From the NCBI GenBank assembly GCA_015179125.1, contig WHVA01000243.1:1-64000 (forward strand): DNA of 64,000 bases, written 5' to 3'. Below the pieces are notes generated by a model. That model saw nothing but the letters and a program-made list of their open reading frames with translations, was not told where the DNA came from and did not search any database. This document shows, piece after piece, positions 2,151 through 37,311 of the stretch. The stretch comes from Gautieria morchelliformis (lineage: Eukaryota; Basidiomycota; Agaricomycetes; Gomphales; Gomphaceae). How positions within the stretch are numbered: position 1 is the stretch's first letter; each line of letters begins with the position of its first letter. The position numbers and the translations under genes were made by a program.

Positions 2151-3690
2151 TTGGGCATAAAAAGTCATTCTGCCTGGACATTTCAAGGAAGTACACGGGA
2201 CATGAATCAAAACTGCCAGAACTCCCTAGCCATTACAACAAAGAAGGGTCCCCCTGATTTGTTTCTTACCATGACTGCCAATCCAAAGTGGGATGAGATA
2301 TTGGCTGAGTTGCTCCCTGGACAAACTGCTCAGGACAGACCTGACTGGTGTTGCAGGTGTTTCACCTCAAAAAGAAATACCTCATTGACTTGATCGTCAA
2401 GGACAAGATCTTTGGAGAAACCGTCGCTCGCGTTCACACTATTGAATTCCAGAAGAGGGGGCTCCCGCACATGCACCTGCTTATCTGGTTCGATAGGGAC
2501 TCCAAGGTCAAACATCCACATGAGGTGGATTCTATGGTTTCAGCAGAGTTCCCTGATCCAGAGACACATCCTGTGCTCCACCAGTTGGTCTGTGAGCTGA
2601 TGACACATGGTCCCTGTGGACAGGGACATCGAAACGCACCCTGCATGGAAGAGGGCAAGTGCAAGAAAAACTTCCCAAAGCCATTCTGTGAGGAGACCAT
2701 TGTGAATGTAGATGGATATCCAAAATATTGTCGTCGCAATGATGGAAGGCTGCACAATGTCAGAGGTGACATGCTGGACAACAGATGGGTTGTGCCATAC
2801 TCTCCTCTGCTCTTGCTCAAACTCCGTGTCACATCAACCTTGAATTCACCTTCAGTGTGAGGTGTGTCAAGTATATCCACAAGTATCTCTACAAGGGTCA
2901 TGATCGGACCACGATGGAGTTTGGTGTCAACCATGATGAGATAAAGAAGTACCTGGACGCTCGCTATGTCAGTGCTCATGAGGCCTGTTGGAGGTTGCTG
3001 GAGCAGGAAATCCACACCCAGGTGCCTGCAGTCATGGCACTGCCAGTCCATGAAAAAGACCAGCAATCAGTCATTTTCAATCCTGATGCTGATCCGCTCA
3101 CCATCATGAACAGGGTCGAGGGGTCAAAGACAGCGCTCATGGCTTACTTTGAGGCCAATGCTGCCTACCCTCATGCACGCAATGTGCTCTATGTGGATTT
3201 TCCTGAGCATTTTACCTGGCAAAAAGAGGAAAGGGTATGGACACCACGTCAAAGGGGATATAGCATTGGACGCCTTCACTTTGCAAGCCCAAAATCAGGA
3301 GAGAGATTTTATTTGCGCACTCTCCTCACGGTGGTCAAGGGGGCCAGATCCTTTGAGGAGCTTAGGACAGTGGATGGCATACAATGTGCTACTTACAAGG
3401 AGGCCTGTCTTGCCAGGGGACTTCTGGAGGATGATCAGGAGTGGAGGTTGTGTCTCCAGGAAGCCAGTGGCATGAAAACAGGCGCTCAGCTCAGACATCT
3501 CTTTGCCACCATCCTTGGTCATTGCATTCCCTCACAACCTGACAGACTATGGGACGGCTTCAAGGAGCACATATGTGATGATCTCAGACATCAGCTCCAA
3601 ATCAGACACATATCCAGGAGCCACGGGATGATCAGGTCTATGATTTTGGCCTCTTTCTCTTGGATAAACTCCTTCAGTGTAATGGAATGT
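2151..3690 (+). pseudogene. Helitron HUH replication initiator (Rep) domain
   Basis: The domain opens with DLFLTMTANPKWDEI. The metal-binding HUH motif is GLPHMHLLIWF near 2460-2490, and the catalytic tyrosines are in KYIHKYLYKGHD near 2870-2900. Rep nicks and rejoins single strands during rolling-circle transposition. The C-terminal part (EACWRLLE, NVLYVDFPEHFTW, LRTLLTVVKGARSFEELRTV) is well preserved. Frame changes near 2360, 2815 and 3635 separate these pieces, so it is not functional as it stands. Confidence 0.88.
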
Positions 3691-5216
3691 CCTTGAGCAG
3701 CTTTAAAGATATGCCTCGGGTGGTAGGTGAGTGGGAGGTCCTGATTGGAAACAGGTTCATAGCTGAGCAGAGGGACTATGACCCTGTTCAAGAGAGGCAG
3801 ATGGCTGATGAGGAGGCTCCCAAGCTGAATGAGGGGCAAAGGTCTGCGCATGATCAGATATTACGGTCGGCACTGGACATAGATGCTCAGGAGAAACCTA
3901 ACGGACAAATGTTTTTCATCACAGGCTCAGGGGGCGCTGGGAAATCATTCACATGGAACACCCTAATCCACTCCTGTAGAGCGGAGAATCTCATTGTGCT
4001 TGCTGTAGCCTCATCTGCAATGGCTGCACTTATCCTCACTAATGGTACAACCTCTCACAGCATGCTTGGAATTCCAATTCCTGTCCATGAGGGCTCTCTC
4101 TCCTCCATCAAAAAGAACTCTGACCAGGCTGATATGCTGAGACTGGCCAGGCTCATCATCTGGGATGAGGCTGCAATGCAGCATCGCCATGCCATAGAGG
4201 CCATTGACAGGACACTGAGGGATTTCCTTGACCAGCCTGACCGACCCTTTGGTGGCATCACGGTTGCCTTTGGAGGTGACTTTCAGCAGACTCTGCCAAT
4301 TGTCCCCAAAGGCTCCAAGGAGGATATCGTGGGAGCTACCCTTCAGAAGTCATATCTGTGGCCAAAGATCAAGGTCCTCCATCTGACAGAGAACATGCGG
4401 GTGAGAAATGACCCTGACAGAGCCAGGTTTGCAGAATGGCTGCAGAATGTGGGTCAGGGAAAGGATCTCCCACTAGATCATACCTTCTCACTCCCTCAAC
4501 ACATGGTTTGTGGCCCTGGAATTGCAGAGCTGATCCAGGAAATATACCCTGGCATTGGCAATGCAGTCCCTGCCCAGGACAATTATTTCTTGGAGCGGGC
4601 CATCCTCTGTGCCAGAAACACTGAGGTCAATGAGATCAATTCCATGGTGTTTAGGGAGTTTCCAGGTGATGCTCAGGTCTTGCACCGTGCAAATTCCATT
4701 ACAGAATCCGATGATGCAGATAGGTATCCTGCAGAGTATCTGAATTCCATAGAGATGGGCAGTCTTCCTCCTGCTCGCTTGGAAGTCAAGCCTGGAGTGC
4801 CTCTGATGCTGTTGCACAATTTGGATCAGAGGCAAGGACTATGCAATGGGACAAGGCTGCGGTTGGTGAGGATGAACATTAGAGTGTTGGAGGTCAGGAT
4901 CATCTCAGGTCCACGTGCAGGAAATATTGCTTTCATCCCCAGGATCATCATTAAGCCATCAGAGGGAGAATTGCCATTTGTGCTGCAAAGGAGGCAGTTT
5001 CCAGTGCGTTTGGCATTTGCAATGACTATCAACAAGTCTCAGGGACAGTCTTTGGGTACGGTTGGGCTGGACCTGAGATATCCAGTGTTTGGACATGGTC
5101 AATTGCATGTTGGTGTATCAAGGGGGACCAACTGGAACAGGGTTAAGGTCTTGCTTGAGGAGGGTGTGCAAACCAAAAATATTGTATATGAAGATGTATT
5201 GCTTAGAGCTCCTTGA
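3660..5216 (+). pseudogene. Helitron Pif1-like 5'-3' helicase domain, still open for 518 codons
   Basis: Walker A is GSGGAGKSF, Walker B is LIIWDEAAM, then FGGDFQQTLPIV, and the late helicase motif INKSQGQSLGTVGLDL lies near the C-terminus. The order and spacing match the Pif1/RecD2-type helicase fused to Rep in Helitrons. The domain unwinds the donor strand during transposition. It overlaps the previous frame by about 40 bases, which is a frameshift between the Rep and helicase parts and not a real gene start. It is the best preserved part of the element. Confidence 0.9.
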
Positions 5217-6315: not shown

Positions 6316-6556
6316 TGTTAGCGTTAGTGTTAGTAAGCAGAGAACGCACGGACCATGATGCTATTATATAAGCTCGGTAGGACATCGTCTCACCTCAGTG
6401 AAACAGCCGTTCACTGAGGTGAGACTTACCTGTCGTTGGACAGACAGTTTACTTACAATATCCCCATAGATAACTGTCTTTAGGTACTTAGCTATATACT
6501 GAGTGAAACAGCCGTTCACTGAGATAACTGTCTTTAGCTGCGCAAAGACATTTTCA
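6316..6556 (+). repeat. 5' LTR of copia element 1
   Basis: 241 bp, TG...CA ends. It carries a TATATAA box near 6365-6371 and a 16-bp-arm perfect hairpin (6387-6402 with 6410-6425, loop ACAGCCG). A second, shorter copy of the hairpin core CAGTGAA/TTCACTG follows, and the block GATAACTGTCTTTAG appears twice, before and after that second hairpin. The TATA box suits the retroviral-type promoter in the LTR. Confidence 0.95.
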
Positions 6557-6572
6557 GGTTATGGGCCCCGCT
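6557..6572 (+). other. Primer-binding site (initiator tRNA-Met half-molecule type)
   Basis: GGTTATGGGCCCCG starts right after the LTR. It is complementary to the anticodon stem-loop region of initiator tRNA-Met and not to the tRNA 3' end, the arrangement known from Drosophila copia, where a tRNA fragment primes. The ATG of the coding region (6561) lies inside this site. The second copia element has the same feature. Confidence 0.75.
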
Positions 6573-9500
6573 GATAGTATAGTACCTACCAGCGGCGCAA
6601 AGTCCTTCGCAGTTCCCAAGCTCGCCCGGGATGGGTCGAACTGGGTAACGTGGAAGATACAGACGAGGGCTACCCTCGCGGCAAACAAGGGTGTGCTACG
6701 ACACCTCGATGGCACAGCTCGGATACCAGCCCCAATCCCGACGTACCCTCAGAACCAGGTCCTGGATGAGGACGATGAGCAGGCACTCGAGAGGGCAGAG
6801 AAGCGTTGGGATGAATATCACCAACGCGAGGCCTTAATTACGGCACAGATTTTCACGACAATACCGGACTCACTCTTAATAGAGGTCCGGAAGCTCGGTT
6901 CAGCGAAGGAAATCTGGGAGGCGATATGTGCAAAGCACGAGAGCAGAGCTCTCACAGTCAAGGTCAATATACGGCGCAGGATGTACGAGATGAAGTGTGA
7001 GGATGAGTCAAATGTTCGCACCCACCTCGAAGCTCTCATGAAAATGCAAGAGCAGTTAGCTGGAATGGATGCAGGCCTTACCGACGACGACCTCGTCACC
7101 GTGATTCTAGGATCGTTGCCAAAAGGGTACCGACCACTCATCAATGCTATCTCGCTGTCAGCTACGCATGCGCAAGTCACACTCACACCCGATACGGTCG
7201 TTCAGAGTCTACTCGATGACTTCGAGCGGCTCAAGGTCGAGGAACGGCAGCTCAAGGCTACTGAGAGCACACTCACAGCTGCGAAGGGTCGCGGAAAAGG
7301 CAGACGCACCAACAGCTCTAACAATGCCGGGAAGTCTGATATTGAGTGCTGGAAATGCGGGAAAAAGGGGCATATAAAAGCTGATTGTAGATCAAAAGGG
7401 AAAAAGGAGAGGGACGGCGATAAAAAGAAGGGGAGCGAGTCAGTAAATGCCGTGACCGAAGACAGCGAGTGGGCCTTCACCACCACATTCGCCGGTCACA
7501 TACTCTCTCGGGAGAGTAGCAAGCACAAAGGAACCGAAGTCGATGTCTACGACTCGGGAGCCTCGACTCACATGTCCCCAGATCGCCATCGGTTCACCAC
7601 CTTCAAAGAGATCCCACCCCGTAGAATTGCCGCAGCCGAACAGACGATCTTCACCGCGACCGGCATTGGAGACATGCGCGTGGTCATCCCGAATGGGAAA
7701 ACAATGACGCACATAACACTGAAGGACGTACTTTACTGCCAGGACTTGGCATTCACATTGATATCGCTAGTGCGATGTGATAAAGCCGGATTCGCCGTAT
7801 TGCTACGCGATCAACACTGCACAATCCGAGACGCGAAAGGCACAACTGTGGGCAAGATACCGCTCAGAGATGGACTATACAAGGTGGAACACGCACCACC
7901 TACAGAATCGGCTAACGCCGTGCAGAAGGTCCTCACCATCGACAAGCTCCATCGCCGGATGGGTCACATCTCCCCACGCGCTATAAAAAGCCTCGTGGTT
8001 AAAGGCGTTATCACCGGCATCGAAGTAGACAAGAAGAGCGTACCTACGTTCTGCACGTCATGCGCGCAAGGGAAAATGACGCGCAAACCGATTCCTAGGG
8101 AAAGGATAGGGCGGCGAGCTACAAAGCTCGGCGAAAAGATACACAGCGATGTATGGGGACCTACCACACCTCAGAGCTACGACGGGAGGGAATACTTCGT
8201 CAGTTTTACTGACGACTTCACTCGTTGGTCACGCATCGAACCAATGAAAAGAAAAAGCGAAGTACTCACTTGCTACAAGCAGTACGAGGCGTGGATAGAG
8301 ACACAGCATGGTGGGAAAGTCAAACGACTTCAAAGCGACCGAGGGGGAAAATATCTATCCGAGGAGTTCGATCAGCATTTGAAGTCAAAAGGTATAACAC
8401 GAAGCCTTACCGTCCATGATACGCCCGAACAGAACGGCGTAGCGGAACGCGTGAACCGCACATTGATCGAGCATGCACGTGCCATGCACTTCACAGCCGA
8501 TCTACCCAAGTTTCTATGGCCGGAGTCAATTCAGCACGCGGTTTGGCTCAAAAACCGCACATCCACATACCAATTGGATGGGAAAACCCCCTATGAGCTC
8601 ATGTTCAACAAAAAACCGGATTTATCTAACTTACTGGAATGGGGCGCCAAGGTCTGGGTGCTGAAGGAGGATCGCGGGAAACTTGACGCGAAGGCGGACG
8701 AAGGACGCTGGGTTGGGTATAGCAGGCAAAGTCAAGCTCACCGAGTCTATTGGCCGGGGAAACAACGAGTGACAGACGAACGCAATATTGTGTTCGATAA
8801 TAACGTCGCAGTTGGTCCGAGCGATGTATTGGCCGAGAACGAAGGGGAAAGCACACAGTGCAGTCAGCGCGATGCTCCAAACCAAAGTCACGACTTACCC
8901 CAAGAAGATACCAGCGAAGAGCTACCTCCGCATCCGCAAACACCGCAAGCAGACCCACTCGAAGGTTTCGAGACGCCTGAACCTGCAACGGAACCCGAGC
9001 AAGGGCACGGACATAGAATATGCAAACCGTCAGCGTATGTCCGCGATATCGCTCAGGGCCAGGGCACAAGCTCCGGACGTGCGAACGCACCTGCGTATCC
9101 GCGTGGCATGCCGATCCCACCCCAAGACTCCAGGGAGACCGCTGCCATCGCAGCCCTCCATGATTCCGAGTGCACCGTCAATTCGGACTGTGACGACGCC
9201 GAACTCGAGGGGGAGTATATGGAGTACGCGATGATGGCAGCACAGAGCGCAGGAAACGACCCCAAGAACGTTGAAGAAGCTAGAAAACTCGACGACTGGC
9301 TAGAATGGGACGCGTCAATAAAAAAGGAGCTGAAACAGCACGAAGAGGTTGGCACCTGGGTACTGGTAGAGCCACCTAAGGACGCGAACATCGTTGGAAG
9401 TCGGATCGTCCTCCACTATAAACACGACGCGAGCGGCAACCTTGTCAGCCGCAAAAGCAGAGTCGTCGCCCAAGGGTTCACGCAAGTCGAAGGCCTAGAC

Positions 9501-10850
9501 TACAATGAGACCTTCGCGCCGACAGCGAAGCTCTCAGCGATTCGGATCATCGCGGCCCTGGCGGTCAGAAATGACTGGGAATTGGAGCAGACAGATGTAG
9601 AAGGAGCATACCTCAATGCACGGCTGAGGGAAACCATCTACATGCGCCAGCCCAGAGGATACGAGGTTCAAGGTAAAGAGAACCACGTATGCCTCCTAAA
9701 ACGAGCGATCTACGGACTGAGACAGTCCGGGCACGAGTGGTACGACCACCTGTGCGCGATCATGTTCAAACTCCGGTTTAGGAGATGCCGGGTTGAACAT
9801 GCCGTATTCCTTAAGCAGGAAGACAATAGCACGCTACTCGTCGCTGCAGATGTCGATGACATGACTATTGCCGGAAGCACGAGAGAAATAATCCGCAAGT
9901 TTAAGTGGGAGCTTAGCCAGGAGCTCAAAATCAAAGATCTAGGCGACCTACATTGGATGCTAGGCATCGAAGTCGCAAGGGACAGGAAGGCTCGAACGAT
10001 ATCATTTTCGCAGCACGCGTATATCACAAAGATACTTGAAAGATTCGGACTACAAGATGCAAAGGGCCTGTCGACCCCACTCGATCCGCATCACAAGTTG
10101 AGCCTAGCCCAATGCCCTGTAACGCCGCGCCACTACGAAGCCGTCCAGGGAGTCCCATACCGCGAAGCCATCGGATCCCTAATGTACGCAGCTCTAGGGA
10201 CGAGGCCGGACATCATGTTTGCCGTCACGTTTCTGTCGCAGTTCATGCAGAATCCGGGACGGCCTCATTGGGAAGAGGTGAAGCGAGTTTTTCGTTACCT
10301 GAAAGGAACGATCGACCAGAAGCTGGTGATCGGTGTCAGGAATCGGTGGACATGGGCGAAACCAGGAAAACAAGAATGCACCGGACTCGAAGGGTTTTCG
10401 GATGCCGATGGAGCCTCACAGCACCATCGATACTCGATATCCGGCTACGTGTTCACCATAGACGGAGGTGCCGTTTCCTGGAGCTCGAAGAAGCAGTCAG
10501 TTGTCACGTTATCCACAACAGAAGCAGAATACATAGCTGCCACTCACGCAACGAAAGAAAGCCTGTGGATTCGCATGTTCATCGCTGAAATCGCCCGTCC
10601 TCTCACACAGCCCGTCACCATGTACTGCGATAACCAGTCAGCGATATCAGTCTCGAAAAACGATCAGTTCAAGGCACGCACCAAACATATCGACGTATGA
10701 TACCATTTCATACGCGATGTGGTCAAACGCGGCCTGATCTCCATCGACTACTGCCCTACCGCTGACATGCCGGCGGACATGCTCACGAAGGCCCTGCCGG
10801 CTCCACAGCTCGCTCGCCTTCGAATGTCCATTGGAGTGCGTTCAGCTTAA
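6561..10850 (+). pseudogene. Gag-Pol coding region of copia element 1 (near-intact fossil)
   Basis: Parts in order: a Gag/UBN2-like capsid region; a CCHC zinc knuckle (CWKCGKKGHIKADC) near residue 265; a retropepsin with DSGAS near residue 330; an integrase with an HHCC domain (H-RRMGH ... CTSCAQGK) and DDE core (HSDVWGP, SDRGGKY); a copia-type reverse transcriptase from about residue 920; and RNase H with the TEAEY motif. A single frame for Gag and Pol is common in copia elements. About one break interrupts it near the far end. It ends just before the polypurine tract. Confidence 0.93.
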
Positions 10851-17935: not shown

Positions 17936-18239
17936 TGTAGTGATCAGAGGATTGAGGCCGGTAAGCGGAGAACGCAGGGTCGTGTCCGATGCACGGACTC
18001 GTAGTTAGGTAGCCACGGTCAAGCTTGACCGTGCCAGTATATTAGTCCAAGGATGTTTAGTCGTACCTCAGTGAATCGACCATTCACTGAGGTACGTACC
18101 ATTTCTGTGTACCGAGACGTGCAGTAGCTTACACTCTGTCTGTAGCTACTTCGTCTCCAGGTACAGTAATAACACACGCTCAGTGAATCGACCATTCACT
18201 GAGCTACTTCGTCTCCAGACTACTGCGCCCTTACCAACA
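17936..18239 (+). repeat. 5' LTR of copia element 2
   Basis: 304 bp. It holds a 14-bp-arm perfect hairpin (18062-18075 with 18083-18096, loop TCGACCA), then a second hairpin with core CTCAGTGAA/TTCACTGAG near 18180-18202. The block GCTACTTCGTCTCCAG occurs once before and once after the second hairpin. This matches the layout of element 1 although the LTR sequences otherwise differ. Confidence 0.95.
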
Positions 18240-18254
18240 GGTTATGGGCCCCGC
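18240..18254 (+). other. Primer-binding site of copia element 2
   Basis: GGTTATGGGCCCCGC follows the LTR and contains the ATG of the coding region, as in element 1. It is complementary to the initiator tRNA-Met anticodon stem-loop. Confidence 0.75.
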
Positions 18255-21200
18255 AGAGCCCACAACGTCCACCCCCACCTCCAAGTCGTTCGTCATCCCG
18301 AAGCTGGCCAGGGACGGCATGAACTGGGTCACCTGGAAAAGCCAGACGTTAGCTACGCTGGCGGCGACCCGGGGCGTGAAGCGTCACCTCGAAGGGAACG
18401 CTCGGATCCCCCGTACGATCCCGACGTACCCCGACGGCCACGTACTCACAGAGAAGGAGGAAGAGGACCTGGAGGAACTCGAGAAACGCTGGGACGATTA
18501 CAATCAGCGTGAGGCACCGATAATGGCACAGATATTCACCACGGTCCCTGACAGCGTCCTCATCGAAATCCGCAACCTAGCCACAGCAAAGGAGGTATGG
18601 GAGGCCATATGTGCAAAGCATGAGACAAGAGCACTCACGGTCAAAGTCGACATGCGACGATGCATGTACAAACTGAAGTGCGAGGACGAATCAAACGTCC
18701 GTACGCACCTGGAGTCTCTCATGAGAATGCAGGAGCAACTCGCAGGGATGAACGCGGGACTCACTGATGATGACCTGGTCACCGTCATCCTCGGCTCGCT
18801 CCCGAAGTCGTACCGCCCGCTAATTAACGCGATAACGATGTCGGCAGCACATGCAAAGGCCAAGCTTGAGCCGGACCAAGTGGTCAGCATGCTAGTCGAC
18901 GAATTCGAGCGACTTACCATTGAGGAGCGGCAACTAAAGGCGAGCGAGAATGCGCTCGCCACGACAAAGGGCCGGGGGAAGACTCCAGCACACAATGGCA
19001 CCTCCAGCACCGCGAAAACCGATAAAGCCGACATAGAATGTTGGAAATGCGGGAAGAAGGGCCATATGAAGGTAGATTGCCGGTCCAAGGCCAAAAAGAA
19101 GGACAAGAAAGACGATGACAAGAAAGGAAGTGGGTCAGCGAACGTGGCGGCAGAGGGCGAGGAATTCGCATTTACCACGACGTTTGCTGGGACGACGCTC
19201 GCACTGGGAACGAGTCCAGTGACTGGACGGGAAGTCGACGTCTACGACTCGGGCGCGTCAGGTCACATGTCGCCCAACAGGGACCGATTCCTCACCTTCA
19301 GAGAGATCGCACCGCGCGCTATCAATGCCGCGGACAAGACGGTATTCCAGGCTATTGGGATAGGCAACATGAGGGTGGGGATCCTTAACGGGAAGACTAC
19401 GACACACGTCACCTTAAAGGACGTGTTATACTGCCCTGACCTCGCGTTCACCCTGATCTCCCTGACGCGCTGCGACGCAGCAGGGTACTCGGTTCTGCTA
19501 AAGGATCGAAAGTGCTTAATCCGCGATGCGGGAGGGACCCTGCTAGGGCAGATCCCACTCTTGAACGTCCTTTACAAGGTAGAGAGACAGGGGTTAGCGG
19601 CGTCAGCAAACCTCACGCGAAAGGCACTTACGATGGATGAACTACACCGCCGGATGGGGCATATCTCCCCCCAGGCCGCGCGGAAGCTCGTCCAGGACAG
19701 CGCAATCACGGGGATCGACGTCAATTTGTCGAGCCAACCGGGCTTCTGCACGGCATGTGCGCAAGCTAAACCCACGCGAAAACCCATCCCGCAGAAGCGG
19801 GAGGGACCACGATCGGGCAGGTTCGGCGACAAGGTCCACTCAGACATGTGGGGGCCCGCAAACCCCCAGAGCTACGACGGAAGGGAGTACTTCGTCAGTT
19901 TCACGGATGACCACAGTAGGTGGACATACCTTGTGCCCATGGCAAGGACAAGCGAGGCGTTCGGCTGCTATAAGCAGTACGAAGCCTGGGTCGAGACCCA
20001 ACACGGCGCAAAACTGAAACGTCTACAAACGGACCGCAGGGGTGAATACCTGTCCCAGGAATTCACGGCGCACCTCAAATCGAAAGGGACAGTACGGAGC
20101 CTCACCGTACACGATACGCCAGAGGAAAACGACGTATCGGAACGCCTGAACAGGACGCTGCTGGAGCACGCACAAGCCATGCTCCTCACAGCGAACCTGC
20201 CCAAGTTCCTGTGGACAGAATCAGTACAACACGTGGTCTGGTTGAAGAACAGGACTTCGACGTGCGCACTCGACGGCAAGACGCCGTACGAGATGGTGCA
20301 CGGCGCGAAGCCCGATCTGACGGACTTACCTGAGTGGGGCACAAGGATCTTTGTGCTCAAAGAACAGGCTGGGAAGTTGGAGTCAAGATCCGACGAAGGG
20401 AGGTGGATGGGGTATAGTGACGAGAGTAAGGGGCACAGGGTCTACTGGCCCGGAAAGCGCCGGGTCACGGTCGAACGTAATGTCACCTTTGACGCCCCCA
20501 TCCTCATCACTCCTGCTGACACGCTGGCTGAGGGGGAGTCTGACACAGGCAGCCAGGGCGCCAGCAGCAGCACTCCTCAGGACCAAGGACCGCTACCCCA
20601 GGCCACCACCGGACCCGCGCGAATCGACCCGCTAGAAGGGTTCGAGGACGCGGACCCACCAGCCGGTGACCCACCGCAGGGCAGGGGCCACCGTACACGG
20701 AAGCCCTCCGCGTACGTGCGAGGGATTGCCGACGGCGCAGGCAGCAGCACGGGTCGCGCAAACGCGCCTGCGTACCCGCGCGGACTGCCACGACCCACGG
20801 ACGGCACGGCACTAGCCGCCCTGACAGGGATAGCAGAGTCATCCACCCCTGAGACCGAGGGGGAGACCCTCGAGCACTCGATGGCAGCAGGGACGCGCGA
20901 CCCGGGGGACGACCCGGTCAGTGTCGCTGACGCACGCTCCCGTGACGACTGGCCCCTATGGGACGCGTCGATCAAGCGGGAGTTGGCCCAGCACGAAATG
21001 CTAAGGACGTGGGACCTGGTCGAACCCCCAGACAACACAAACATTGTCGGCAGCAAGTTAGTTTTCCACTACAAATACAATGCTAGCGGTGCGGTTATAG
21101 CCCACAAGACCAGGCTCGTCGCGCAGGGGTTCTCGCAGATAGAAGGGATTGACTACAACGAAACCTTCTCCCCCACCGCTAAGCTCTCCGCCATTCGCAT

Positions 21201-22467
21201 CATCGCCGCGATCACCACCTGAAACGACTGGGAGTTGGAACAGACCGACGTGGATGGAGCCTACCTCAACGCTCCAATCACGGAGATGATCTACATGCGC
21301 CAGGCGAAAGGGTACGAAGCTCCAGGAAGGGAGCACTACGTGTGCCGCCTGAATCGCGCAATATACGGACTAAAGCAGTCGGGGAGGGAGTGGTATGACA
21401 TGCTATGCGGGATTATGTACAGGTTCGGGTTCACGCGATGCGAGACCGAGCATGCAGTCTTCCACAGGTACACCTACCACGACGCCCTCATCATCGCCGT
21501 CGACGTCGACGACCTCACGATGGCCAGCAACACGAGAGGAGCAATACGCAAGTTCAAGGACGAACTGTGCACCGTCCTCAAGATCAAGGATATTGGTGAC
21601 CTGCACTGGCTGCTAGGGATAGAGGTGAAGAGGGACCGCGGGTTACGCACGATCTCCCTATCACAGCGCGCGTACGTCCAGAAGATTCTAGAGAGGTTTA
21701 ATTTACATGACGCTAACCCGCTCGGCACCCCACTCGACCCACACCACAAGCTCTCTCTGTCCCAATGCCCCTCCACCGCTCGCCAGTACGAAGACATGCG
21801 GGGCGTGCCTTACAGGGAGGCCATTGGCTCCCTCATGTACGCGGCGCTAGGCACCCGACCCGATATCTCATTCGCCGTATCGTTCCTATCTCAGTTCATG
21901 CAAAACCCGGGGAGGCCTCACTGGGAGGCAGTTAAACAGGTTTTCCGTTACCTCAAAGGGATGAAGGAATTGTGCCTCGTCATCGGAGGAACAGGGAAGG
22001 GACTCGAAGCGTTCTCAGATGCGGATTGGGCATCGCAAGAACATTGACACTCCATTTCCGGCTATGTCTTCACGATGGGTGGAGGCGCCGTCTCGTGGAG
22101 CTCGAAGAAACAAGCGATCATCGCGCTGTCGACGACAGAGGCCGAGTACATCGCTGCAATGCATGCAGCAAAGGAGGCCCTCTGGATACGCATGTTCCTC
22201 GCGGAGATCGCACGTCCCCTCACGAAACCCATCACGATACACCTCGACAACGTCTCCGCCATTTCCATCACCAAGAACGACGAATATCACCCGCGCACGA
22301 GGCGCATCGATATTCGCTACCATTTCATATGCCAGTCGGTACGGGAAAATCTCTTACACGTCGACTACGTACCCACGGCGGACATGGCGGCAGACATGTT
22401 TACAAAAGGGCTCCCCCGTCACAAAGTGTTGCATATGAACGCGCTGGTAGGACTGCGTTCTGCTTAA
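18244..22467 (+). pseudogene. Gag-Pol coding region of copia element 2 (fossil, about two breaks)
   Basis: Same domain order as element 1: capsid region, CCHC knuckle (CWKCGKKGHMKVDC), protease DSGAS, HHCC integrase with its catalytic core, reverse transcriptase and RNase H with TEAEY. Codon use is more GC-rich than in element 1, so these are two separate lineages and not copies of one insertion. The region ends immediately upstream of the polypurine tract. It is broken in about two places. Confidence 0.93.
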
Positions 22468-27783: not shown

Positions 27784-30680
27784 TCATGAAGTGGTATACT
27801 GATCGATGCGGAAAGGTGTAATAATATCATACACATCCTCGTTCCCTTGCGATTCCGAGTCGTCTCGACCACCGCCGCGGCCTACGACTCGCTTGAATAA
27901 ATTACCAACCCCTCTCGAAGGCTTCCGCTCCTCTTTATCTGGATTGACAACCTCCTCCGGATAACAATCCATCACCACCTTGGCTAGCCGCCGCATTCCG
28001 TTCGACGGGTCGTTCTGCACTTTGCGCGCACGCGAATCTCGCATTGCCGACTGCAGATACAGCGCCAGATTCGGCAGAGAAATGGGGAGAATGGGGAAGG
28101 GCGACGTAGGGGAGAGCGGGATAACGTAGAACTGCGAGTCTGCATTGTTAGCGAGGTACGGAGTGGGCTCGCTCAGTGTGTACGAGTAGGGCAACAAAGC
28201 TGTGTCTTTATTGGTATACCGCCAGGCATTCTGCACGGTGGGTGGGACTGGCTGGTCTATGGTGAGATGTAGGATCGTACGCCAGGTGTTCGCCGAGTAC
28301 GGCAGCTGTGAGGGGGAAAGATTGATTCATGGTTTTCAGTCACACCAAGCTGCTGCAAACCACACCTTTACAAACTGAACCACGACGCGTAAGAGATGAT
28401 CATCTTTAGCACCAGCAATAGCCTGGAGATCCGCCTGTATACGAGTCTCGAGCTGTGCCAGGAGACGCATGAGGTGTCTCCAAGAAGTCGCCATGATGTG
28501 GAAGGGAGGAAACGGTGCGCGGGTGAGGCTAATAACATCAGGGAAGGAGGGACATAACGATAACGGTTTCGCTGGTGGTGAGAGCGTGTCAGGTGGCTGG
28601 AATCCATACGCTGAGACATAGAGACCAGACAGCAATTCTTGTCAGAAAGGCCGAGCCTGGCAAGTAAGAAGGAAACTCACAAACGCCTTGCATCAAATCA
28701 GGTTCTATGGCGTCGTCCTGCGGGGCAATACCCGCAAGAGACCTCGGCCTCGATGGTGTCTCGTTATGGCTTAGACTATTATTATCCCCGGGAGATGGGT
28801 CCCGCGAACGTGGGGACACTCCCTCAGCGTTCATATCACTGCCTCGCCCAGCAGGATGGTCGGTCGCAATCGCCGATCTCCCACGACCCACCGGTTCTGG
28901 AATCCGTACTGACCCACTCACAAATGCGCTCGCGGCACGTCCTGGACGTGTCTGTTGCACCGACTCATTGTAGAATTGCGGTAAGGATTGCATAGTCCGC
29001 GGTGTCGGCCGTGTGGGTGGACCCACCGTGGAAATGCAGCTCACGATATCATTGTACAGTGGTAGAGGTGGAGCTCCTGGGGCGAATGCTGGGTCAGGTG
29101 CTAGAGATACACCCTTAGTGGCGCGTTTTCGTCCATCGTTGTTAGTCTCCGCCATTCTTCGTGCCATTGCCGCATCCATACGCTCCAGGGCCTCCCGTAT
29201 CGTCTTTTGTGCCTTTTCCTCGGCCTCCTCCCGCCGAGCCAGCTCTGCGTCCATTCGTGCCCTCTCCTCATCCCGCCGTTCACGACTCCTTTTTGCGGCC
29301 TCTGATCTGGTAGCCTCCTCTTCCTGAAGCCGCTTTATGAGCGCTGCGTCCATTCTTGCCCTTTCTTCATCCCGTCTCTCTCGTTCTCTCAGTTCAGCCT
29401 TAAGCCGCTGTTCCTCCTCTTCCTGAAGCCGCCTGGTAACTTCTTCATCGTCCAAAACTTGCAATATTTGTCCATGTGCTGCATGGTCCTCGAGCTCCTC
29501 AGACGACAAGATGTCCCTTCCGCTGTCTGGAACAGATGCTCTCCGACTTGAGGTCAGCCCACTCAAATCTCTTGCATGCTGCCGTAAGTTTTCTGGTTTC
29601 ACAGGCAACTGTGGCAGCTTGAGACAGTGGGAGTCGTCGGTCTGCGACTGACCTGTGTTCTGCTCGAGCGAGGCTGCAAACGAGAGCGACTCAGCAAGGG
29701 CACGAGCCAGTTCATCGTCTTCTTTTTCCTCAAGAGTCTGGTCTGCGGAATGGTTCCTATGAGAATCGCCTAAAGATAGAGTCAAAGCCTGTTGGATGTC
29801 AGAGTCTAACGATAAGGTTTCGGACGTCTGGGCCTCAGGGAAGGGCGAGCCTGTCGCCAGGATTTCGACAATCGCGTTGTCCTTCCCCGAAGGCGTCAGA
29901 GTATGCTCACCACTGGGAAGAAGAACCGGGGACGTGACCGGTTTCGGCGGTACTGGTGGTGCTGATGATGGCGCCTGCGAAGACATGGTCGGCGAGCTTT
30001 TGAACCTAACCTCACCATGTGTGATGGGAGGGCGTGGGGGCACAGGAGGAAGTGGTGAATGGGGACGATCAAGGGTTTTGAAGTCTCCATAGGAATAGGG
30101 ACGTCCGAGTCTACCTTCAAAGTTTGCAACTATTGGCGAGTCAGTAACATCACTAGTAAGTGGCCGTGGAGGTACCACAGGGCGAGGAAGCGCGAAGGAG
30201 TTCGAGTCAAAATAATCACGTTGACTAATTTGTGTAAAAGGATGTGTCGGTGCGCGTGGGAGTGGTGGAAGGGAGGTATGGAAAGAACTTAAAACATTGG
30301 GAGACGATCCTGGCCGCCGGAGAGGTGGAGGGCCACGAGCTGGCTCTGCAAAGGTAAAGTCGATATTTGTATGAGCCAAAGGAGGGCTGTAGAAACTAGG
30401 TCGGAGAGCTAGAGGAAGCGGAGGAACTGGAGGAGGAGGTGGAGGGCGATTGTTCCACTGAGGCTGCGGAGCTCGAGACGCGGAGAAGGATGAGGAACGG
30501 GGTGCAGGACGTATGGGACCTCTCGAGTAATTGTCTACAGGTCCATCTGACCAAGACCGCTGAATACTATGTGGTTGAAGAGGCGGCGGTGCTAGAGGAA
30601 CAAAAGAAAGGTTATTCGGCTACGGCAGAGTGCAAATGAAGCATGTGCCCACAAGTATTTATCGGCTGACCTGGATACAT
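27784..30680 (-). CDS. Proline-rich protein with two ubiquitin-interacting motifs and a charged coiled coil
   Basis: Exon model: 30680-30671, 30591-28681, 28610-28366, 28305-27784, giving 895 residues with all joins in frame and GT-AG borders. The first exon is only 10 nt (ATGTATCCAG). It was chosen because the main frame has no ATG of its own, is closed upstream by a stop, and begins at a strong polypyrimidine-AG acceptor. The N-terminal 220 residues are rich in PPxP runs that could bind SH3 or WW domains. Two UIM-like helices follow: SDIQQALTLSL (about 266) and EDDELARALAESL (about 293). Next comes a highly charged coiled coil (about 380-480) with a repeated RERRDEERARMDA unit. The C-terminal 250 residues (from about YGFQPPDTLSPP) form an unnamed globular domain. 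An adaptor binding ubiquitinated cargo is inferred; no enzyme motif is visible. Confidence 0.8.
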
Positions 30681-32218
30681 ATCTTACTGCTGGAAGATGT
30701 ATACCACCGAGGGGGGAGTATGGGCACTGGTCGCTGTGAGCATATAGACGGGAGCCCGCTGCCGCTGAGAGTCCACGGCTCTGGCGACATACAGTAAGTA
30801 CCGTCTGCCGAACGCGCGAGCCGAATAGCCTACTTAGGATCAGTCGCCTTTTTGATATATAGAGAGCGTCGCGAAGAACACTGCAGGGAATTAGACGCAC
30901 AGCCAAGGCCTGCGCCCGTTACTCGCCGCGGTCAGCTGGCCTTGCCCTTTGTATATTCTCATATTCTCATTCAGATCGACACTAGTAGCTGCCTCCCAGG
31001 CATACGCTCACGAGGCTCAAGCATTTTCCACGGACGGCTCGTGCCTCGTGTGACAGCGGCTCACGATTGGCACCCGCCTCGCGCTCGCCTACTAAAACAA
31101 GGCTTTTGTCGATTGTGCTTCTGTTGCTACCGAGATGGATACTGGCACCACCGAAGTGCAGCGTGAGGTGCTCATGAGGCTGTTTTCCAGGCGTGGAACT
31201 GCTGCAGCATAGCGCGCAAGCACCGGTCTCGCCTCACCAGGCTATTCGAATCTTTGAGCTGGTGCGTGGAGGCAATTGAGATACTTCCGTGCAACTATCC
31301 GGCACTGGCAGCCCTAGCTCAAGTCGCGCCATACGCATAACCAGCTCGAAACTCGAAGCATGTGTATACTGTCTTGCGGATGCTCCTCCCGTGACTCTTC
31401 ATCTTACATCAATTCTCGACATGCATCAGCTCTCCCGAACGCCTCACTACTATGACTACATAAAACACCCCTACACTCTGCCTTGGTTCGCCTTGTCGGT
31501 GTTGGCCGCTCCCGTAGTGTTTTACTGACATGCTTGGCTGGCAATAGGGAGTAAGAGTGTGTGAGGGTGGGCCCTGCGGAACATCTGGTGCCAGGCTACG
31601 GCCACGTCCTCCGTTCCGTACGCCCTTCGGTCACCGCAGTTCGATGTCCCCGGACGTCCGATTGGTTCTAGCCTTAAAAGGTCGTGATGGGCTGGTCACA
31701 GCATGGACCCAGCTTTCGCCGATGCTACTGTCCGAAAACTGCGATTGGCCAGATATTTGATGGGGGCTAGCGGTATACCGTCATTCCATTGATGGGCCCA
31801 GAAGTTACGGTTCATTGGGCTCGCCAGCGTCGACAATTCGGAGTCGCCCTCTATACATTATTACTAGCTCTTTCACCGTTGAGTGTGTACGACGTTGCCG
31901 ATCTTCTCCCTGGACCATCGACGTATACGCTTATGATCTGTACCCGGATTTGGTTCTCCTATTAGGTCCTAGGTTACGGTATTAACTATCACCAACGGGA
32001 TTTGAGGCAGGATCGATTGTCGGCATTGCCGCAAAGATTAAGAAAGCCTATTGGCCTGATTCGGCTAGAGAGGCATCGTACAAAGGCTTTCTTAAAATCG
32101 ACACGAGGTATTTTGAATCTGGGCCTCGATAGTAGTTGTCACATGCACAGTACAGTGTCTTCAAAGTAGAACCACCGCACGTTCCCACGGATGCAGTATC
32201 CTCATGCACACAAATTGC
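30681..32218. other. Intergenic region, no recognised gene
   Basis: About 1.5 kb between divergent genes. Short open frames on plus (30852-31166, 31289-31528, 31557-31760) have no recognisable motif and no clear splice pattern joining them. It should hold the promoters of both neighbours. I could not pick a convincing core promoter. Confidence 0.35.
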
Positions 32219-34532
32219 ATGGGTCAAGGTTCTTCAAGGTCAACATCTGTGAGTACATTCGTACATCATATTCGTCTCACTCACGCCATGGCAGAAGTCT
32301 GGCAGCATACGTACCAAGTCACTCTCGGAGGCTGAGAGTCATCATGACCCCAGCGTGACCGAGGGCGATTTTCAACCCGTGTCTCGTACAATAAGAGACC
32401 TTTCAGCTGAAATTCAGCTTCTGGGTGATTGTCCTGCTGCTGCGGGCGTGGTCTCTTCCATTTGGCTTGGGAATATTTCTAACAACAGACGGGTAGCTGT
32501 CAAGTTATTCGTGCGGAACCGTTCTGCTGCGAGTCAAGTACGTCTTACATTGATATCAAATTTGCTACTCTCAACTGTTATATAGTATTTCTTGCGTGAA
32601 GCACATGTGTGGTCTTCCGCAAAGCATGAGAATGTCATGCCTCTTCTTGGTGTCGCTCGGTTGCGAAATACGGTTGCTCTTATCTCACCGTGGATGCCAG
32701 CGGGTAACCTCAGGAAATATCTCCGTGCTCATCCAGAGGCAAACGTGCTTGGGCTCATGGCAGATGTTGCCTGTGGTCTTGCCTACGTCCACAGCCAAGG
32801 GATCGTTTATGGTAACCTCCGATCGGTTAGAACCCTTCATCGACTCCTTCAGCCCATATGCTCATGGGATCCTAGTCCACTATATTGGTATCCGAAACGG
32901 GACGCGCGTATCTTTCTAGCTTTTTGGTAGCTCATACTACAGAGGGAGATAGATACCCTACCCAAGTCCTTGACTGGCGCATCAGCTCCCCAGAGTTTTT
33001 TTCACCTAATTCCTTACCATTGTCGGCGAGTCAGATAGCATTGACAACTGAGAGCGATGTATTTGCATTTGGAACGACTGTAATGGAGGTGAGTCGTCTG
33101 CCTCAGCCTTGCTGTCGCCCTCCTTACAACTGTTTGTCTCTTAAAAGGCTTTCGTGTATGTGACATCAAAAGGGCATTACAGAGATGTCATGAAGACGAG
33201 TTTTCTGCAAGGAAAACTCCCCGAACACCCCCAGTTCACGGGGGAAACGGGGCTTACCGATGATTTATTGCGTCTGGTCAATTGTTGTTGGGAAAGGGAT
33301 GCAGAAGAGAGACCAAGAATGGCCCAGGTGGCTCGCCGAATGGTCGCACTAACAGAGGCGGCGATCCCGTCCCCTTCCACGAGACCTACACTTACGCAGC
33401 GGACGCTCAAGAACATCAGTGCCGAGATTAAAAAGATGAGCGAGCATCCTATCGCTGGTGGAGGTTATTGCGATCTCTATCTGGGCGAAAGACTTGGCTC
33501 AGAGAAGGTGGCACTCAAACTGGTGAGACTTTTTGGATCAGCAGATACAGATAAAGATGCGGCACGTCGTGTGAGTTGTTGCGAGTCTTCACAGGGATTC
33601 TATCATTAATTCAGTCTACTGATCATAGCGTTTCCTGAGCGAGGCGCGTATATGGGCTGAACTTGAGCACCCTCGGATCTTGGAATTCTATGGCATTTGC
33701 GAATATGGCACCTTATCACTGTTCATGGTAGGTCTGGCTCCGCTCGTTGACGTCATTGCCTTGAATTCCGAACTTGCAAGGTCTCGCCGTTTTTGGAAAA
33801 CGGCAATATCACACACTACTTGTCCGATATCGCTCCTAATGCAGACAGGCGTTGCTTGGTATGCCTCAGTATATTTGTCTCTCACGGCTACTAATGCACC
33901 ATGAACAAAATAAAGCTCATCGAGTCCGCAGAAGGCCTTCTATACCTCCATACCCGTCAACCACCTGTTCTGCATGGTGATTTGAAAGGGTCTGTGCATG
34001 TATGCTCTTATTTCTGTTTGCACTAAATCCATATCACACATTTAGAGCAAACATACTGATTTCTGACGCTGGCAACGCGGTGTTAGCGGATTTCGGACTT
34101 TCAAGGATAAGTCACGAAGAAACGACTACATTGCTGCATGGTGCTGGTTCTCCTCGATGGATGGCCCCCGAGCTCATACTGGCTGGGGACGAGGAGACAG
34201 GACCACTGAAGTCACCTAAAACTGATGTTTACGCGTTCGGGCATATCATGCTTGAAGTTTGTCACGATACTCTTACGGCGTGCTTCTGATTAAAGTTTAA
34301 TCATTTCCAGGTCCTGGGCGATTGTAAACCTTTCTTCCACTTGAAAGAAGATTTGCATGTTATTGTCGACCTCATACACAACAAGCGGTCACCCCGACCG
34401 ACAGGTCCTATAGCGGACAGGTGGCTAGACGATGCTGCGTGGGCGTATTGTCAGACATGTACTGCTATAGATCCTAATGACAGGCCGGACATGGAGGTCG
34501 TCATTACTGACCTCCGTCTATTGTTTGCTTAA
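32219..34532 (+). CDS. Tandem pseudokinase-kinase protein (TKL type) with predicted N-myristoylation
   Basis: Ten-exon model, every join in frame: 32219-32248, 32295-32537, 32586-32825, 32876-33088, 33148-33570, 33629-33727, 33781-33858, 33916-33989, 34046-34256, 34311-34532; 610 residues. It starts MGQGSSRSTSKSGS, which fits the myristoylation pattern (Gly2, Ser6). Domain 1 (about 45-310) keeps the ATP-site lysine (VAVK, K80), but the catalytic loop reads YGN at 166-168 and the DFG position reads SSF at 185-187. It is therefore a predicted pseudokinase with a complete C-lobe (CCWERDAEERPRM). Domain 2 (about 330-610) has VALK (K366), HGDLKGAN with catalytic Asp464, DFG at 482-484 and MAPE, so it should be active. 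Both begin with a related segment (DLSAEI / NISAEI), suggesting internal duplication. A membrane-tethered signalling kinase is inferred; the substrate is unknown. Confidence 0.85.
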
Positions 34533-36297: not shown

Positions 36298-37311
36298 ATG
36301 TCATCAAAACTACCCTCGGTGCTGAGTGCAACAGATGAGGAGATCCAGCTCCTCCTAGCTGCCCACTGTCATATTGGTACCAAGAACTGTGAAAAGCACA
36401 TGGAGCCTTACGTCTGGAAGCGACGTGCGGATGGTGCGCAAAATACAACGTTTCGAGGAGGGGTCTTCATTTTTGACGTCAGGATGTAGGTATACACATT
36501 ATTAACATTGGCAAGACCTGGGAGAAGCTTGTTTTTGCGGCACGTATCATTGCTGCCGTTGAGAACCCGAACGACGTCTGTGTCATTTCTGCCCGTCCCT
36601 ATGGCCAGCGTGCAGTCCTCAAGTACGCTGCCAACACCGGTGCCCAAGCTATTGCTGGTCGCTTCACCCCCGGTAGCTTTACCAATTACATCACTCGATC
36701 CTTCAAGGAGCCCCGGCTTATTGTCGTCACTGACCCTCGGGTTGACCACCAGGCGATTCGTGAGGCGTCCTACGTGAACATCCCTGTGATTGCACTCTGC
36801 GACACGGATGCACCACTCAAGTTTGTTGATGTCGCTATCCCGACGAACAACAAGTCCAAGCACGCTATCGGTCTAATTTGGTGGCTGCTCGCGAGGGAGG
36901 TACTTCGTCTGCGTGGAACCGTTCCCAGGACGAGCGGGGGCTGGAATGTCATGGTGGACATGTTCTTCTACCGTGATCCCGAGGAGGTCGAGAAGGAGCA
37001 ACAGGAGGCAACTACTGCCAAGGCTGCCGCCGCCGGTGCTATCGAGGAAGCGCCACCACCACAAGATGTTAGAGAATGGGAAGTAGGAACCGGACCTCAG
37101 GCGGGTGCTATCAACCCCACACTGGTTGCTGGAGAAGGTGGTAAGTGTTCGCTTAGGATATTTCTCTCGTATGAGAACCTGATGGTTATCTGTCTCAGGC
37201 GCTCTTGACTGGGAACCTACCGGACCTGCTGGTGTCACCGATTGGGCAGCTGAGCCCGCTGGCGCCGCATGGGCTGCGGAGGCCCAGCAACCTGGCACAG
37301 CTTGGGACTAG
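36298..37311 (+). CDS. RPS0: 40S ribosomal protein S0 (uS2, laminin receptor-like)
   Basis: Three coding exons: 36298-36433, 36490-37140, 37199-37311; 299 residues, close to the usual fungal length. The N-terminus [20 protein letters not shown] and the blocks [11 protein letters not shown]-type, [52 protein letters not shown] and [12 protein letters not shown] are diagnostic for uS2. The protein sits on the 40S head-body junction and is needed for 20S pre-rRNA processing. The C-terminal tail is alanine/glutamate/tryptophan-rich ([11 protein letters not shown]), as in eukaryotic uS2. It is a single-copy housekeeping anchor for this block. Confidence 0.97.

Follow-up and report, generated by a model that had tools for sequence, protein, structure and literature searches.

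A predicted pseudokinase–kinase tandem of a tyrosine-kinase-like family in the mushroom fungus Gautieria morchelliformis

A tandem of a dead and an intact kinase domain

The window analysed here is a stretch of 64,000 nucleotides from Gautieria morchelliformis (assembly GCA_015179125.1, contig WHVA01000243.1, here C275; the assembly comprises 122 Mb in 1113 contigs), and it carries a gene whose predicted product combines two kinase domains, a catalytically degenerate domain 1 followed by an intact domain 2. The motifs of both halves, and the dead state of domain 1 that is common to two further copies of the gene, bear out the order of pseudokinase then kinase read in an initial annotation of the DNA. 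The tandem is real and, judged by its sequence, old, under selection and part of a fungal tyrosine-kinase-like (TKL) family. The interpretation that we prefer, and consider moderately probable, is that a pseudokinase and a predicted active kinase of the mushroom TKL lineage became fused, that the fused gene was then duplicated, and that the first domain would regulate the second in cis. The features that define the gene are as follows.

32219..34532 (+): entire coding sequence, 10 exons, pseudokinase–kinase protein of 610 residues (spliced model and intron recovery in paralogues)
33148..33570 (+): exon 5, a single unbroken exon that holds the domain junction (end of domain 1, linker and beginning of domain 2)

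Removal of nine GT-AG introns of 46–59 bp joins the ten exons into a stop-free frame, as had been proposed, and spliced alignment of two paralogues (C764 and C519) provides independent support for this model. Of introns 2–9 (n=8), six are placed identically in C764; of the two exceptions there, one is read as coding despite a 45-base GT-AG stretch, and the last lies a few residues away. The C519 model has seven of the eight, one of them displaced by one residue. Exon 5 encodes the final domain-1 helices, the linker and the first part of domain 2 without interruption; it therefore argues for one gene encoding both domains, as first annotated, rather than for two separate genes. Pfam scanning of the 610-residue protein (threshold E 0.001, curated cut-offs also considered) revealed that PF07714 and PF00069 each match two stretches, PF07714 reaching E 2.3e-66 over the whole protein. 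No non-kinase family was found at the threshold or above the curated cut-offs, in keeping with the earlier statement that no other domain precedes the pseudokinase, and each half matches kinase families when searched separately (residues 1–315 at E 2.7e-33, the remainder at E 1.3e-32). Domain 1 is preceded by 36 residues, and about 40 residues separate the Pfam matches of the two domains. The full-length protein gave no match in the PDB at E 1e-32.

Domain 1 is a predicted pseudokinase

32373..33366 (+): domain 1, predicted pseudokinase, residues 37–315, exons 2–5 (PF07714 at residues 62–306, residues 1–315 searched alone)
32502..32504 (+): codon of K80, the retained beta-3 lysine (model and alignment)
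32808..32816 (+): YGN in place of HRD/HGD, residues 166–168 (model and alignments)
32918..32926 (+): S-F-L in place of DFG, residues 186–188 (alignments)

Three conserved residues are retained in domain 1, namely the beta-3 lysine (K80), the glutamate of helix alpha-C (E96) and the aspartate of DVFAFG. At the position where its relatives have a glycine loop it reads PAAAGVV, and where it has YGN, HGD is found in 10 of 12 family kinases of the genome, the exceptions being L047 (HGN) and L042b (VGP). The ATP-site lysine and YGN for HRD were thus correctly assigned in the initial annotation; its SSF for DFG was one column off, the DFG columns being S-F-L in alignments of domain 1 with Lyn and with domain 2. 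The HRD aspartate column holds N168 in the window gene, M in C764 and I in C519, and the DFG aspartate column holds S186. Pseudokinases are generally defined by the loss of at least one of the VAIK lysine, the HRD aspartate and the DFG aspartate, and domain 1, which has lost both aspartates, is accordingly classed here as a predicted pseudokinase. As the lysine is kept but the DFG aspartate and the glycine loop are gone, the sequence suggests weak or no ATP binding. The best PDB sequence matches of domain 1 were the 9p9u chain named EGFR, which contains two kinase copies with the score summed over both, and Lyn; JAK2 ranks lower among the tyrosine-kinase matches. These matches are taken to indicate a kinase fold only. 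A scan of viral contigs with the domain-1 alignment found no relative.

Domain 2 is a predicted active kinase

33388..34529 (+): domain 2, predicted active kinase, residues 323–610, exons 5–10 (PF00069 at E 1.3e-32 and PF07714 at E 2.4e-32 for this half)
33517..33519 (+): codon of K366, the beta-3 lysine (model and alignment)
33973..33981 (+): HGD catalytic loop, residues 462–464 (model and alignment)
34089..34097 (+): DFG, residues 482–484 (model and alignment)

The motifs of domain 2 are intact, namely the glycine loop, K366, E388, HGD with D464, DFG with D482, and MAPE, and those listed when the gene was first annotated (K366, D464, DFG and MAPE) were all found in the model and the alignment. 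Tyrosine kinases carry the motifs DL(R/A)A(A/R)N and P(I/V)(K/R)W(T/M)APE (PMC3937382; this and the other papers cited by PMC number are drawn on in excerpt). Neither was found in domain 2, which reads DLKGAN and SPRWMAPE at these sites; because these motifs are missing, serine/threonine or dual specificity is expected. PDB sequence matches of domain 2 include plant CTR1, TNNI3K and IRAK4, among others.

Paralogues and selection

Searching the genome with the protein revealed four further loci that we regard as tandem copies or pieces of them (C764, C519, C448 and C330). C764 is open along its full aligned length, with a stop 13 codons further on, and C519 is open until the final part of domain 2, at which point it lacks DNA that C764 has. 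The other two loci, C448 and C330, are frameshifted fragments that do not extend over the domain-1 HRD and DFG motifs. Both C764 and C519 share the domain order of the window gene and retain HGD, DFG and MAPE in domain 2, and the junction between the domains is likewise unbroken by introns in them. Their domain 1 reads YGM and SFL in C764, and YGI and SFL in C519. Both the catalytic and the metal-binding aspartate of domain 1 are thereby lost in all three genes that cover the motifs, and as domain 1 is dead in each of them, the loss of its function would most simply predate their split. In C448 (L041) and C330 (L043), the DNA match to C764 starts at an identical point inside domain 1, as if a single truncated copy had given rise to both.

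Domain 1 of the window gene is 45% identical to that of C764, whose domain 2 is 69% identical. The divergence of the two genes was analysed with a pairwise codon model, in which the ratio of nonsynonymous to synonymous divergence (omega) was 0.15 for domain 1 (log-likelihood −2051.1 versus −2090.7 at omega 1) and 0.035 for domain 2 (−1873.9 versus −1988.6); omega 1 is rejected for both domains, and the values are approximate because synonymous divergence (dS) is saturated (3.5 and 5.8). Nonsynonymous divergence (dN) was 0.53 in domain 1 and 0.20 in domain 2. The closer pair, C764 and C519, was compared by a counting method on a direct alignment, and gave omega values of 0.54 for domain 1 and 0.15 for domain 2. 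A first count for this pair (domain 1, dN 0.170 and dS 0.203, about 0.84; domain 2, dN 0.027 and dS 0.085, about 0.32) was superseded, as its gaps had been placed via window coordinates. Over the long run, domain 1 has thus been under purifying selection that is looser than that on domain 2, and it is an old, retained pseudokinase by sequence.

Origin of the tandem

The related segments at the starts of the two domains had been read as a sign that one domain was duplicated and then degenerated, and this reading was not supported. The alignment revealed that a segment resembling both starts also begins single kinases of the family (L042a, L044, L045, L047 and others); the segment is general to the family and is therefore no sign of a duplication inside the gene. 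Domains 1 and 2 are 25% identical, and 14 other kinase rows of the genome are 30–42% identical to domain 2 and 17–31% to domain 1, all 14 being nearer to domain 2 than domain 1 is. For the phylogenetic analysis, 29 rows were extracted and nine were dropped before the tree (one repeat of a locus and eight partial or distant sequences); two more were removed for approximately unbiased (AU) tests with 18 rows, and one further for tests with 17. A clade uniting domains 1 and 2 was not rejected (p 0.111 with 18 rows, 0.11 with 17). Domain 1 sits on a long branch, and any placement of it in the tree is unsure for that reason. Duplication inside the gene, which the AU test does not reject, is thus unsupported by the identity or by the introns.

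The intron positions are of help here. All three introns of domain 1 are in phase 0 and lie at the equivalents of domain-2 residues 383, 467 and 537, and introns within two residues of these sites occur in 10, 10 and 8 of 12 family kinases, respectively. The window gene, C764 and C519 all have the corresponding domain-2 site at 467 one base earlier, in phase 2. The domain-2 intron after residue 416, which is common to 3 of the 12 kinases (the near relatives L047, L030 and L042b), is absent from domain 1, and so is the intron after residue 442, which occurs in all 12. This pattern therefore favours the fusion of two related kinases over the copying of domain 2, with the proviso that intron loss could mimic it. 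The most likely origin, as far as the sequence can tell, is the fusion of two genes from one kinase family, or else a very old duplication.

Single pseudokinases are found elsewhere in the family. At L042 (C338:166000-174000), inside a cluster of kinase matches, a single pseudokinase with VGP for HGD and an altered DFG is followed, about 1.8 kb downstream and in the same orientation, by an intact kinase of the family; this is the kind of neighbourhood that could yield such a fusion. L047 (C601:20500-25500) is a family kinase with HGN for HGD, and is likely another pseudokinase.

The N terminus

32204..32248 (+): exon 1 with its 5′ alternative; an in-frame ATG at 32204 (MHTNC) lies ahead of the ATG at 32219 (MGQGSS) (translation of 32100–32400)

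A myristoyl anchor had been proposed at MGQGSS. Translation from the ATG at 32219 gives MGQGSSR, which is consistent with the general myristoylation pattern. The other in-frame ATG, five codons upstream and missed in the initial annotation, gives MHTNCMGQ, so that a start there would bury the glycine. A further upstream ATG, at 32191, lies in another frame. The −3 bases of the two in-frame ATGs are C and T, neither being the favoured purine. In their simplest reading, C764 and C519 begin with MNPLDIS; the predicted anchor is not seen conserved in the paralogues and is doubtful.

Proposed mechanism and alternative explanations

According to our preferred interpretation, the protein would be a soluble or peripheral-membrane kinase of the expanded TKL lineage of mushroom fungi. 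Two genes of one kinase family would have fused (or a very old duplication would have occurred), and the fused gene, with domain 1 already dead, would have been duplicated, leaving two or more open genes in the genome. By analogy with Gcn2 and JAK, domain 1 would still adopt a kinase fold, without catalysis, and would keep domain 2 of the same chain either inhibited or activated until the contact between them is altered by phosphorylation or by a partner. Such cis-regulation is likely, and the sequence is compatible with an inhibiting, an activating or a purely docking role of domain 1. The family-wide intron sites common to both domains speak in favour of this interpretation. Several observations weigh against it: the saturation of dS between the window gene and C764; the omega values of the closer pair, in which constraint on domain 1 may be loosening; the missing kinase end of C519 and the broken C448 and C330; and the MNPLDIS start of C764 and C519, where an upstream exon is possible and the 5′ ends are unsettled.

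A docking or decoy module, by which domain 1 would recruit substrates or partners for domain 2 but exert no allosteric control, is a less probable alternative. Such a role has been proposed for plant tandem kinases, and in paralogues of wheat WTK1, where a decoy was suggested, conservation is likewise lower in the pseudokinase (about 30%) than in the other half (about 80%; PMC6170490). The faster evolution of domain 1 noted above (dN 0.53 versus 0.20) is what a partner-facing surface would display, although the short linker also fits direct contact between the domains. That domain 1 is instead a dead relic in a decaying duplicate heading for loss seems improbable. The frameshifted fragments C448 and C330, the truncated C519 and the omega of 0.54 in the closer pair point in that direction, but the window gene and C764 have open frames wherever they were compared, even though their synonymous divergence is saturated, and for domain 1 the comparison between them strongly rejects omega 1. 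We give as little credence to a membrane-tethered, JAK-like, self-inhibited kinase that is N-myristoylated at MGQGSS: the fit of MGQGSSR and the pseudokinase-then-kinase order, as in JAKs (PMC5770812), are set against a possible start at 32204, the MNPLDIS starts of the paralogues in their simplest model, and the failure of FERM and SH2 domains to match at E 0.001. An erroneous joining of two neighbouring genes, for which no point in favour was found, is very improbable, since exon 5 is continuous across the domains and the junction is continuous in C764 and C519 too.

Other kinases of the genome and neighbouring genes

A second family of tandem kinases is represented by L052 (C376:50600-52900), L053 (C811:3200-5300) and L054 (C149:337900-340000), which are single open frames of 559–582 codons. 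Both domains of these three copies are without the HRD aspartate (HNQ and HCQ), and they are apparent double pseudokinases; a kinase listing of the genome suggests more copies of this type on the same contigs.

Within the window, two Copia-type retrotransposons were recognized by Pfam at 6528–10697 and 18187–22044, the latter with a stop inside its reverse transcriptase region, and a PIF1-like helicase open frame at 3582–5213. Upstream of the kinase gene, on the opposite strand, lies a 676-codon open frame (28592–30619, −) with no Pfam match at E 0.001, and downstream of it the C-terminal part of ribosomal protein SA (uS2) at 36477–37205. DUF6534, a family typical of Agaricomycetes, has nine matches in the genome and none in the 14 control genomes of that search.

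Comparison with known kinase systems

The initial annotation described the protein as JAK-like. In JAKs, a pseudokinase lies directly ahead of the kinase, the order seen in the window protein, and the JH2 domain of JAKs retains the beta-3 lysine, which domain 1 keeps as well. The JAK linker spans about 15–30 residues (PMC5770812), and that of the window protein is likewise short. JAKs differ in having N-terminal FERM and SH2-like domains, neither of which is matched in the window protein (Pfam, E 0.001), and a C-terminal tyrosine kinase, whereas domain 2 carries no tyrosine-kinase signature; the lost glycine loop of domain 1 is a further difference. Membership of the JAK family was ruled out on the missing FERM and SH2 matches and tyrosine-kinase motifs. 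The description as an undescribed system was also too strong, as fungal Gcn2 already shows the same order, and a kinase is combined with a pseudokinase in JAKs and plant tandem kinases too. In Gcn2, the eIF2alpha kinase of fungi and animals, a pseudokinase directly precedes the active kinase and activates it by direct contact (PMC4014428), but Gcn2 contains RWD and HisRS-like domains, which are unmatched in the window protein (Pfam, E 0.001).

Plant tandem kinases such as WTK1/Yr15 and RPG1 have two kinase domains, one of them dead in WTK1, and no additional domain, as is the case here. They are nearly all of receptor-like origin, and WTK1 has its active domain first, whereas in the window protein the dead domain comes first. 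Among 92 plant tandem kinases, 52 were attributed to duplication and 40 to fusion, with many independent origins (PMC6170490).

Among fungi, the FslK kinases, expanded TKL kinases of Agaricomycetes, resemble the window family in being fungal, multi-copy and devoid of tyrosine-kinase motifs, a likeness by description rather than by placement in a tree. They are defined by complete kinase subdomains and absent tyrosine-kinase-specific residues, both of which apply to domain 2 and to other TKL kinases too. FslK kinases are mostly complete and presumably active, with extra domains in 16 of 241, and their functions were stated to be undetermined in 2014; the covered parts of that paper mention no pseudokinase–kinase tandem (PMC3937382). 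Many TKL kinases are also reported from Laccaria bicolor (PMC2838846), and the present genome contains at least 152 PF07714 matches, counted exon by exon. No pseudokinase–kinase tandem of mushroom fungi appeared among the top-ranked literature results, which cover mainly open-access papers and are no proof of absence.

We tentatively suggest, as a possibility that falls somewhat short of even odds, that mushroom fungi evolved their own pseudokinase-gated kinases by fusion within the TKL family, independently of Gcn2, JAKs and plant tandem kinases, and that the dead half has been kept for regulation since before the paralogues split. A dead domain that has been kept next to a live one in the same protein would offer a concrete handle on regulation within the FslK-lineage expansion, and would add a case to the set of pseudokinase–kinase proteins, comprising Gcn2, JAKs and plant tandem kinases, that are available for comparison.
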